From Acidobacteriota bacterium (GTDB lineage Bacteria > Acidobacteriota > Thermoanaerobaculia > Multivoradales > JAGPDF01), in contig WYBK01000150.1 of NCBI GenBank assembly GCA_011525905.1, positions 1 through 40,992 on the forward strand: 40,992 nucleotides of DNA, given 5' to 3'. Under the pieces are notes generated by a model that was not told the origin of the DNA, did not search any database, and worked only from the letters and a program-made list of their open reading frames with translations. The translations under genes and the position numbers were made by a program. Positions 34,348-37,613 of this stretch are shown piece after piece (position 1 is the stretch's first letter; each line of letters begins with the position of its first letter).

Positions 34348-35382
34348 TTGGCCTGGACGCTCGGTCGGATCGCCGAGCGCGTCGCGGGCGAGGTCTGCGG
34401 CGACCCGCAGCGCGTGATCGAGGGGATCCGCACCCTCGACGAGGCCGGACCCCGCGACCTCTCTTTCCTGACCGGTTCGCGTTATCTCGACGCGGCGCGG
34501 CGCAGCGCCGCCGGCGCGATCCTGGTCGCCGAGCGACGCGCGGACCTCGCTGGCGACCAAGTGGTGGTGGCCGACCCCGCGCGGGCGCTCGCCAGGCTGC
34601 TCGAGGAGCTCTACGCGGAGCCGGTGCCCGCGCCGGGCGTCCACGCGACCGCGGTGGTCGGACCCGACTGCCGGATCGACCCCGGCGCCCACGTCGGACC
34701 CTATGTCGTGCTCGGCCGAGGGGTCGAGATCGGCGCGGGCGCCGTGCTGCACGCCCACGTCGTCGTGGGCGACGACTGCCGCATCGGCGACGGCGCACGG
34801 CTCCACCCCCACGTCGTGCTCTACCGCCGCAGCCGCATCGGCGCCGGCAGCGTGGTGCACGCGGGCGCCGTGCTGGGCGCGGACGGCTTCGGCTACACGA
34901 GCGAGTCCGACGGTCCCCGCAAGGTCCCGCAGGTCGGCGACGTCGAGATCGGCGCCGAGGTCGAGATCGGCGCCAACTCCACGGTCGACCGGGCGTTGCT
35001 CGGTTCGACGCGAGTGGGCGACGGCACCAAGATCGACAACCTGGTGCAGGTCGGGCACAATGTCGCGATCGGTCGGGGAGCGATCCTCTGCGGGCAGGCC
35101 GGGGTGGCCGGCAGCGCTCGCCTGGGCGACGGCGTGGTGCTCGGCGGCCAGGTGGGCGTCGCGGGCCACCTCGAGGTGGGCGCCGGCGTGCGCGCGGCCG
35201 CCAAGTCCGCGGTCTACTCGTCGGTCGAAGCCGGGCAGACGGTGGCCGGGATTCCCGCGGTGCCGATCGGACTCTGGCGGCGCCAACAGGCGCTGGTGCG
35301 GCGCCTGGCCGAGCTCTGGCGGCGGTTGCGCAGCCTCGAGCGGCGCACCGGGCTCGCGGGAGAAGAAGAGGGGGAGCGTTGA
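34348..35382 (+). CDS. lpxD: UDP-3-O-acylglucosamine N-acyltransferase LpxD
   Basis: The TTG at 34348 lies 4 bases after skp; the product has 344 residues. The N-terminal uridine-binding domain (1-95) contains GPRDLSFLTGSRY. A left-handed beta-helix of hexapeptide repeats (98-290) follows, with the catalytic His at 237 in NLVQVGHN and GADGFGY near 178. A C-terminal helix ends the protein (RRQQALVRRLAELWRRL). It adds the N-linked acyl chain in lipid A synthesis from acyl-ACP. The stop overlaps the fabZ start (TTGA). Confidence 0.95.
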   Translation: MAWTLGRIAERVAGEVCGDPQRVIEGIRTLDEAGPRDLSFLTGSRYLDAARRSAAGAILVAERRADLAGDQVVVADPARALARLLEELYAEPVPAPGVHATAVVGPDCRIDPGAHVGPYVVLGRGVEIGAGAVLHAHVVVGDDCRIGDGARLHPHVVLYRRSRIGAGSVVHAGAVLGADGFGYTSESDGPRKVPQVGDVEIGAEVEIGANSTVDRALLGSTRVGDGTKIDNLVQVGHNVAIGRGAILCGQAGVAGSARLGDGVVLGGQVGVAGHLEVGAGVRAAAKSAVYSSVEAGQTVAGIPAVPIGLWRRQQALVRRLAELWRRLRSLERRTGLAGEEEGER

Positions 35383-35852
35383 GTTCGTCGCGAGTCGAGT
35401 GGGACGTCCGTTGGATCCAGAAGATCCTGCCGCATCGCTATCCGATGCTGCTGGTCGATCGGGTGCTCTCGATCGATCCGAAGCGGCGCATCGTCGCGAT
35501 CAAGAATTTCACCGTCAACGAGGAGTTCTTCCAGGGGCACTTCCCGGGCTACCCGATCGTCCCCGGCGTGCTGCTGGTCGAGGCCATGGCCCAGGTCGGC
35601 GGCATTCTGCTGCTCCAAGACGATCCGGAGCGCGACCACAAGCTGCTCTTCTTCATGGCGATCGAGCGCGCCCGCTTCCGCCGCCCGATCGTGCCCGGCG
35701 ACCAGGTCCGTTTCGAGGTCGAGGTGCTGCGGCTCAAGGCGGCGCACTGCAAGCTCGAGGCGAAGGCCTTCGTCGGCGAGGCGCTGCACGCGGAGGCGCA
35801 GCTGCTCTCCACCTTCGTGCCGCGCGAGGGCCCGGCAGGAGGTGACGCGTGA
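35379..35852 (+). CDS. fabZ: (3R)-hydroxyacyl-ACP dehydratase FabZ
   Basis: The 157-residue hot-dog-fold enzyme has LPHRYPMLLVDRV (17-29), catalytic H54 in GHFPGYPIVPGV and E68 in LLVEAMAQ. It dehydrates 3-hydroxyacyl-ACP in fatty acid elongation and so competes with LpxA/LpxD for the same substrate, the usual reason it is encoded between them. It has a TTG start overlapping lpxD and overlaps lpxA by GTGA. Confidence 0.95.
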   Translation: MSSSRVEWDVRWIQKILPHRYPMLLVDRVLSIDPKRRIVAIKNFTVNEEFFQGHFPGYPIVPGVLLVEAMAQVGGILLLQDDPERDHKLLFFMAIERARFRRPIVPGDQVRFEVEVLRLKAAHCKLEAKAFVGEALHAEAQLLSTFVPREGPAGGDA

Positions 35853-36670
35853 GCGCGCGCATCCATCCGACCGCGGTCGTCGATCCGTCGGCCGAGATCG
35901 GCGCCGACGTCACGATCGGTCCCTTCGCCGTCGTCGGCGCCGACGTTCAGGTCGGCGACGGCTGCGAGATCGGTGCGCACGCCCATGTCGCGGGGCCGAC
36001 GCGGCTCGGCCGGGGCAATCGGCTCTCTCCCCACGTCTGCCTGGGCGGCGAGCCCCAGGATCTCAAGTACGCCGGCGAGCGCGTCGCGCTCGAGATCGGC
36101 GATCGCAACGTGCTGCGCGAGTTCGTCACCATCCACCGCGGCACGGCTCAGGGGGGCGGCCTGACCCGCGTCGGCGACGACAACCTACTGATGGTCTACA
36201 GCCACGTCGCGCACGACTGCCAGGTCGGCAGCCGGACGGTGTTCGCCAACTGCGCCACGCTCGCCGGCCACGTGAAGGTCCACGACGACGCGGTGATCGG
36301 CGCCTTCGCCGCGGTGCAGCCGTTCGGCCGCGTCGGCCGGCACGCCTACATCGGCGGCTTCACCCGCCTGCTCGCCGACGCGCTGCCCTTCGTCAAGACC
36401 GTCGGCATGCGCCCGGCGGTGCTCGGCGTCAACCGCATCGGACTCCAGCGCAAGGGCTTCTCGCCCGAGCGCGTGCGCGCTCTGCAGCGCGCCATGCGCA
36501 TCCTGCTGCGCTCGGGGCTCAACACCAGCCAGGCGCTCGAGCGCATCGAGGAGGAGCTCGCGGGCAACGCCGACGTCGAGTACCTGGTCGGATTCGTGCG
36601 GTCGGCGCGGCGCGGCGTGGTCAAGAGCCTGCCCTCCTCGCGCGGCGAGGAGGATTTCGCGGATGAGTGA
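35849..36670 (+). CDS. lpxA: UDP-N-acetylglucosamine acyltransferase LpxA
   Basis: The 273-residue product is a hexapeptide-repeat beta-helix (about 4-185) with a C-terminal helical domain (GVNRIGLQRKGFSPERVRALQRAM). Catalytic H122 lies in YSHVAHDC, with H119 and H141 kept. E. coli H160 aligns with Q157 here (AAVQPF instead of AVHQF). The hydrocarbon-ruler position is G170, matching E. coli G173, which suggests a C14-class acyl chain. It starts lipid A synthesis by acylating UDP-GlcNAc, or UDP-GlcNAc3N in species with GnnA/GnnB. The GTG at 35849 overlaps fabZ. The 3' end overlaps the next gene by 8 bases. Confidence 0.95.
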   Translation: MSARIHPTAVVDPSAEIGADVTIGPFAVVGADVQVGDGCEIGAHAHVAGPTRLGRGNRLSPHVCLGGEPQDLKYAGERVALEIGDRNVLREFVTIHRGTAQGGGLTRVGDDNLLMVYSHVAHDCQVGSRTVFANCATLAGHVKVHDDAVIGAFAAVQPFGRVGRHAYIGGFTRLLADALPFVKTVGMRPAVLGVNRIGLQRKGFSPERVRALQRAMRILLRSGLNTSQALERIEEELAGNADVEYLVGFVRSARRGVVKSLPSSRGEEDFADE

Positions 36671-37613
36671 GCGGCGGGCGCTGCGCTGCGGCGTCTTCGG
36701 CGTCGGCGCGCTCGGCCGGCACCATACCCGCATCCTGGGCGACCTGCCGGGCGTCGAGCGCGTCGGGGTCCACGATCCGCGTTGCGAGGCCGCCGAGGCG
36801 GCGGCGCGCGAGCACGGCGCGCGCGTCTTCGCGTCCTTCGGCGAGCTGGCGGCGGAGATCGAGGCGGCGGTGGTCGCGGCGCCGACGCGCGAGCACGAGG
36901 CTCTGACTCTCGAGCTGCTCGAGCGCGGCGTGCACGTGCTGGTCGAGAAGCCGATCGCGCCCGCTCTCGAGGCCGCGGACCGTATGATCGCCGCCGCCGA
37001 GCGCGCCGGCCGGGTCCTGGCGGTCGGCCATGTCGAGTACCACAATCCGGCTGTCGCGACGCTGCTCGAGGCGGGCGGCGCGCCCGGCTTCGTCGAGGTC
37101 CAGCGGCTCGGCGTCTTCTCGCCGCGCAGCCTCGACGTCGACGTGGTGCTCGACCTGATGATTCACGACCTCCAGATCCTGCACGCGCTCGACCCCTCGG
37201 ACCTGGTCGAGGTGCGGGCGACCGGCATTCCCGTCCTGTCCGAGCGCATCGACATCGCCAACGCGCGCGTCGAGCTCGCCTCCGGTCTGGTGGCCAACCT
37301 GACCACCTCGCGGGTCTCCTCCGAGCGCGTCCGCAAGCTGCGCGCGTTCTACGGCGATCGCTACGCCTCGCTCGACTACCAGGCGCAGGAGCTCAAGGGG
37401 TTCCGCCTCGACCGCTCCGGGGGCGACCGCCGCATCCTGCCCGACGACCGGCCGGTGGAGCGCGCCGAGCCGCTGCGCCGCGAGCTCGAGGCCTTCGTCG
37501 CCGCTTGCCGTGGCGAGCCCAACCGCTCGGTCGGCGGCCCGGAGGCCCGCCGCGCCCTGGCCACCGCCCTGGCGGTGGCCGCGGCGGCCGGGCGGCGCGG
37601 CGCGGCAACGTGA
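36663..37613 (+). CDS. Gfo/Idh/MocA oxidoreductase, GnnA-like
   Basis: The 316-residue NAD(P)-dependent oxidoreductase has a Rossmann GVGALG (13-18), catalytic-lysine motif VEKPIA (94-99), VGHVEYHNPAV (121-131) and LDLMIHDLQI (163-172). These match the lpxA-linked Gfo/Idh proteins such as GnnA, which oxidises the 3-hydroxyl of UDP-GlcNAc before transamination by GnnB. No GnnB-like aminotransferase is in the window. The 8-base overlap with lpxA indicates translational coupling and a role in lipid A precursor supply. Another sugar dehydrogenase role cannot be excluded. Confidence 0.8.
   Translation: MSERRALRCGVFGVGALGRHHTRILGDLPGVERVGVHDPRCEAAEAAAREHGARVFASFGELAAEIEAAVVAAPTREHEALTLELLERGVHVLVEKPIAPALEAADRMIAAAERAGRVLAVGHVEYHNPAVATLLEAGGAPGFVEVQRLGVFSPRSLDVDVVLDLMIHDLQILHALDPSDLVEVRATGIPVLSERIDIANARVELASGLVANLTTSRVSSERVRKLRAFYGDRYASLDYQAQELKGFRLDRSGGDRRILPDDRPVERAEPLRRELEAFVAACRGEPNRSVGGPEARRALATALAVAAAAGRRGAAT

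Follow-up and report, generated by a model that had tools for sequence, protein, structure and literature searches.

In Acidithiobacillus ferrooxidans, the GnnA/GnnB route yields UDP-GlcNAc3N, as described in the sections of PMC8036547 used here. The two genes need not be neighbors; those of Mesorhizobium loti are separated (PMC5644692, in the excerpt consulted). We analyzed a stretch of 40,992 nucleotides from an Acidobacteriota bacterium (the window) that carries a gene similar to gnnA directly after lpxA. Judging from gene content, this bacterium, like the whole of its phylum, probably carries a nitrogen in place of an oxygen in its lipid A sugar, with the first gene of the known two-enzyme route placed within the lipid A operon.

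The window corresponds to contig C56 in a genome assembly of 353 contigs and 3.74 Mb that is 93.33% complete. Its lipid A genes are listed in Table 1. The start codon is GTG for lpxA and ATG for the gnnA-like gene. The overlap of 8 bases between the two genes that was given in the preliminary description is present (positions 36663-36670). LpxC and LpxB are encoded on other contigs. For the UDP-2,3-diacylglucosamine hydrolase step, the genome has zero matches to LpxI and a match to LpxH that stays below threshold. Elsewhere in the phylum, lpxI is found between lpxA and gnnA (L081, L097, L143, L126, L131).

Table 1. Lipid A genes of the window and the two LpxA codons discussed in the text.
Feature	Position	Strand	Basis
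lpxD	34348..35382	+	NCBIfam lpxD models above cut-off
fabZ	35379..35852	+	NCBIfam fabZ models above cut-off; 4-base overlap with lpxA
lpxA, 273 aa	35849..36670	+	NCBIfam LpxA models above cut-off; PDB LpxA relatives
LpxA Q157 codon CAG, E. coli H160 position	36317..36319	+	alignment
LpxA P158 codon CCG, E. coli Q161 position	36320..36322	+	alignment
gnnA-like Gfo/Idh/MocA dehydrogenase, 316 aa	36663..37613	+	7bvj similarity; PF01408 above cut-off

The closest solved relative of the dehydrogenase in a comparison with the PDB is 7bvj (183 bits, with the next structure at 61.5 bits), which is similar over the full length and 40% identical. The PDB title of 7bvj is 'Oxidoreductase, NAD-binding', and we take this protein to be the GnnA of A. 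ferrooxidans. An alignment of 111 related GnnA rows, from which rows under 150 bits were excluded, contains 47 near-invariant positions (kept in at least 97% of rows). 7bvj has 42 of these, the Legionella gene beside lpxB has 40, and two haloarchaeal genes have 39 and 37; the number falls to 26 in a Rhizobium Gfo gene adjoining an aminotransferase. Residues typical of the Gfo/Idh/MocA family, E95, K96 and P97 (the EKP motif) and D164 and H168 (Asp-x3-His), are near-invariant and common to 7bvj. The top NCBIfam model is an archaeal UDP-GlcNAc 3-dehydrogenase (NF040723), and the dehydrogenase is not assigned to this equivalog because its score of 178.6 bits is below the cut-off of 450. By homology, the window dehydrogenase is of the GnnA type, as had been proposed. 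The record with the Legionella gene (NZ_LR134421.1; L146) is labelled plasmid 12; it carries lpxB, htpG, glnA, and type II secretion genes and may for this reason be a piece of chromosome.

No GnnB is encoded in the window, as previously noted. Searching the whole genome for GnnB recovered a candidate, P0003 (G000:C83:422-1543), on another contig, so the case of no GnnB homologue, which had been named as counting against a modified lipid A, did not arise. P0003 is the sole strong DegT-family protein of the genome (there is one marginal match besides) and scores 354 bits against PF01041. Its best PDB matches are 2oga, WbpE, and QdtB (271-306 bits), with ArnB at 137. These best matches are presumably C-3 rather than C-4 sugar aminotransferases. 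A GnnB model search gave no match. By these matches, P0003 belongs to the C-3 type of DegT-family sugar aminotransferases and is a candidate GnnB. The P0003 gene is unlinked to gnnA, and linkage of the two genes is not strictly defining because those of M. loti are also unlinked.

Within the order, the P0003 clade comprises 25 rows from six families and has an SH-aLRT value of 100 in a quick tree made without bootstrap, from which one partial row (L061, 213 aa) was left out. The haloarchaeal aminotransferases that are paired with GnnA-like genes fall outside the P0003 group in this tree. P0003-like proteins (E <= 1e-35) occur in 117 of 119 genomes of the phylum according to the per-genome table, in 33 of them as a single copy; the 117 is a loose figure, given the breadth of the family and the presence of relatives with 48% identity in glycan clusters. 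No full-length DegT protein was found in G036 or G145, though gnnA adjoins lpxA in both. These absences could be assembly gaps, less easily so for G145, which is 99% complete. Upstream of the P0003-type aminotransferase gene, the same membrane protein, one with no Pfam match, is encoded in 22 of 25 loci (L036-L060). Two genomes of 1.9 Mb (G100 and G076; L190 and L193) have their sole P0003-like aminotransferase gene between genes for glutamine synthetase and a MATE transporter.

We predict the following pathway. GnnA would use NAD to oxidize UDP-GlcNAc at its 3-OH, leaving a ketone, and P0003, a putative PLP aminotransferase whose gene is on another contig, would add an amine at C-3 to form UDP-GlcNAc3N. 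LpxA would acylate this amine to give an amide, after which the Raetz pathway would continue, and some or all of the C-3 chains of the resulting lipid A would be amides. GlcN3N, amide-linked lipid A made through GnnA, P0003, and LpxA is likely because the GnnA-type gene is phylum-wide and adjacent to lpx genes and a GnnB candidate is present; the prediction draws on identity by homology, operon order, conservation across the phylum, and the C-3 type of the aminotransferase. What the three enzymes act on, and how the lipid A is built, are inferred.

It is possible, but unlikely, that GnnA acts as proposed with some other aminotransferase, perhaps one missing from the 93%-complete assembly, and that the product of P0003 is a dTDP- or UDP-3-amino sugar destined for a glycan of the cell surface. 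P0003 is about equally close to DesV-, WbpE-, and QdtB-type enzymes, and a plasmid relative with 48% identity adjoins a WxcM-like gene; relatives at this identity lie in glycan clusters, and the substrate of P0003 is therefore not fixed by homology. The conserved aminotransferase clades also differ in families f4 and f5/f7, that of f4 being encoded near mutY and dnaA. A search of the flanks of 80 named gnnA loci (10 kb or less) found no P0003-like aminotransferase, so an attempt to prove P0003 as GnnB through its neighborhood failed. Against another partner, P0003 is the one strong DegT protein that the genome encodes, and the neighbors of its gene in relatives (an M20 peptidase, pilin-like and unknown membrane proteins) form no glycan cluster.

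The gnnA gene is widely conserved. It is found in 55 of the 59 genomes of the order, and the four genomes without it are assemblies of 510-1250 contigs. Across the phylum, each of 119 Acidobacteriota genomes (at least 90% complete) has exactly one match at E <= 1e-30. The order fabZ-lpxA-gnnA is kept in all 30 fetched loci of the order (L006-L035, the window's own included), and the lpxA-gnnA arrangement therefore exceeds chance. Among the 80 named loci, lpxA, lpxI, or lpxB is in the flank of 66, within 300 bp in 55, and 14 have none. These counts uphold the link between gnnA and lpxA that was first read from the window. Outside the lineage of the window, the common order is lpxA-lpxI-gnnA, followed by lpxB in L126. 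Six further loci with low-scoring gnnA were inspected; those of G069, G076, G100, and G104 adjoin lpxA or lpxI, and in G070 and G164 no lpxA was found in the stretch examined. The gnnA-like gene of G121 is not linked to lpx genes, has no lpxA in its cluster, and is closer to the archaeal model, so the count of lpx-linked GnnA is one fewer than 119 of 119.

We regard it as an even call whether GlcN3N, amide-linked lipid A is ancestral and phylum-wide in Acidobacteriota. In such a history, gnnA would have become fixed in the lpx operon of nearly every species, and the unlinked GnnB would have been replaced several times by different clades of C-3 aminotransferase (the P0003 clade, the clade near dnaA in family f4, and a third in f5 and f7).

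The product of the dehydrogenase (UDP-3-keto-GlcNAc, or that of another UDP sugar) might instead serve something other than a GlcN3N lipid A, for instance a surface glycan, with the position among lpx genes reflecting shared regulation only. We consider this improbable. Pairs of GnnA-like and aminotransferase genes do occur in clusters of polysaccharide type in haloarchaea and G121, and G036 and G145 have gnnA without a full-length DegT protein. However, in most loci gnnA adjoins lpxA, lpxI, or lpxB or is flanked by them, and one copy per sampled genome fits a step of lipid A synthesis better than a variable glycan. Haloarchaeal plasmids and G121 carry GnnA-like and DegT aminotransferase genes as adjacent pairs, in settings of glycan type (L147, L164, L188). 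The G121 pair is the sole adjacent one found in the phylum; in G157 an aminotransferase gene is about 9 kb from gnnA.

The predicted GnnA and P0003 pathway would place the acylation of UDP-GlcNAc3N on LpxA. The window LpxA scores 331.3 and 306.7 bits against two curated models (cut-offs 226 and 231.05). It keeps the equivalents of E. coli H122, H125, D126, and H144, and the catalytic H125/D126 of the E. coli enzyme correspond to H122/D123 of the window protein. Residues H122, H125, D126, H144, N198, and R204 are invariant in the 82 distinct LpxA sequences from fetched gnnA loci; the alignment has 90 rows, excludes matches under 200 bits, and includes the window twice (L003 and L006). E. coli H160 aligns with Q157 of the window protein, which agrees with the preliminary description. 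The next residue, E. coli Q161, aligns with P158, a change that was not mentioned there.

The substitution at H160 had been coupled to GnnA chemistry, and this part of the proposal does not hold. The 160-position is His in 74 of the 82 distinct sequences, Gln in seven, and Glu in one. Gln occurs in the window species, in five relatives from two genera of its family, and in one species of another family; its presence in the window species and these five relatives indicates that it is inherited. E. coli LpxA reportedly takes both substrates, UDP-GlcNAc and UDP-GlcNAc3N, whereas that of Leptospira is said to prefer the amino sugar. The Leptospira interrogans LpxA 3hsq, which we take to be selective for UDP-GlcNAc3N, has His. 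According to a legend in the review PMC6286764, E. coli LpxA contacts its product through K76, H122, H125, H144, and Q161 (the last listed as an alpha-phosphate contact), among others; H160 is not listed. The excerpts of literature examined gave no residue rule that sets the LpxA acceptor, and the contact residues do not discriminate in this respect.

H160Q as a marker of the amino sugar substrate was rejected on the His of the 74 sequences and of 3hsq. That H160Q adapts LpxA to the GnnA-derived amino sugar and marks such lipid A is very hard to credit, despite its inheritance in the window's family and its occurrence in one species elsewhere, because His predominates in LpxA from gnnA loci, 3hsq has His, and H160 is outside the E. 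coli contacts listed in that legend of PMC6286764; H160Q is thus not coupled to gnnA, and the amino sugar would not require it. Pro at the 161-position is present in two of the 82 distinct sequences only, and Q161P was rejected as a general feature. Q157 and P158 vary by lineage, and nothing in the comparisons ties them to GlcN3N chemistry. Loss of the Q161 contact through P158, which is rarer than H160Q, could matter more, or P158 could be an assembly error. The modified lipid A backbone proposed from the window is probably right, given the GnnA identity, the lpx linkage, and the GnnB candidate, and H160Q is to be dropped as its sign.

Acidobacteriota are among the commonest bacteria in soil. 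We found nothing on point about GlcN3N lipid A of Acidobacteriota in the literature searched, and a term search did not find 'gnn' in the text of PMC3087551 that it covered. The pathway itself is known, and its spread throughout this phylum is the new and testable point. With one gnnA in each of the 119 genomes, mostly adjacent to lpx genes, a base-stable, amide-linked lipid A is predicted for the phylum. The gnnA/gnnB genes of Campylobacter are reported to be involved in cationic peptide resistance and weak TLR4 activation (PMC8036547, same sections), and the lipid A predicted here bears on both properties. The pathway would also supply a function for a gene that databases annotate only as a Gfo/Idh/MocA oxidoreductase.

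The predicted system shares features with each of those described. Like A. ferrooxidans, the bacterium has a GnnA-type dehydrogenase and a C-3-type aminotransferase in one genome, although its GnnB candidate is on a contig other than that of gnnA. M. loti and Phyllobacterium also have genes for GlcN3N lipid A, with the M. loti pair unlinked, but their gnnA lies outside the lpx cluster whereas the window gnnA is inside it (PMC5644692, same excerpt). Legionella adelaidensis (NZ_LR134421.1) also has a GnnA-like gene in an lpx context with no aminotransferase nearby; the gene precedes lpxB there, whereas the window gene adjoins lpxA. The L. interrogans 3hsq and window proteins both have the LpxA fold, with His-Gln in the former and Gln-Pro in the latter at positions 160-161.
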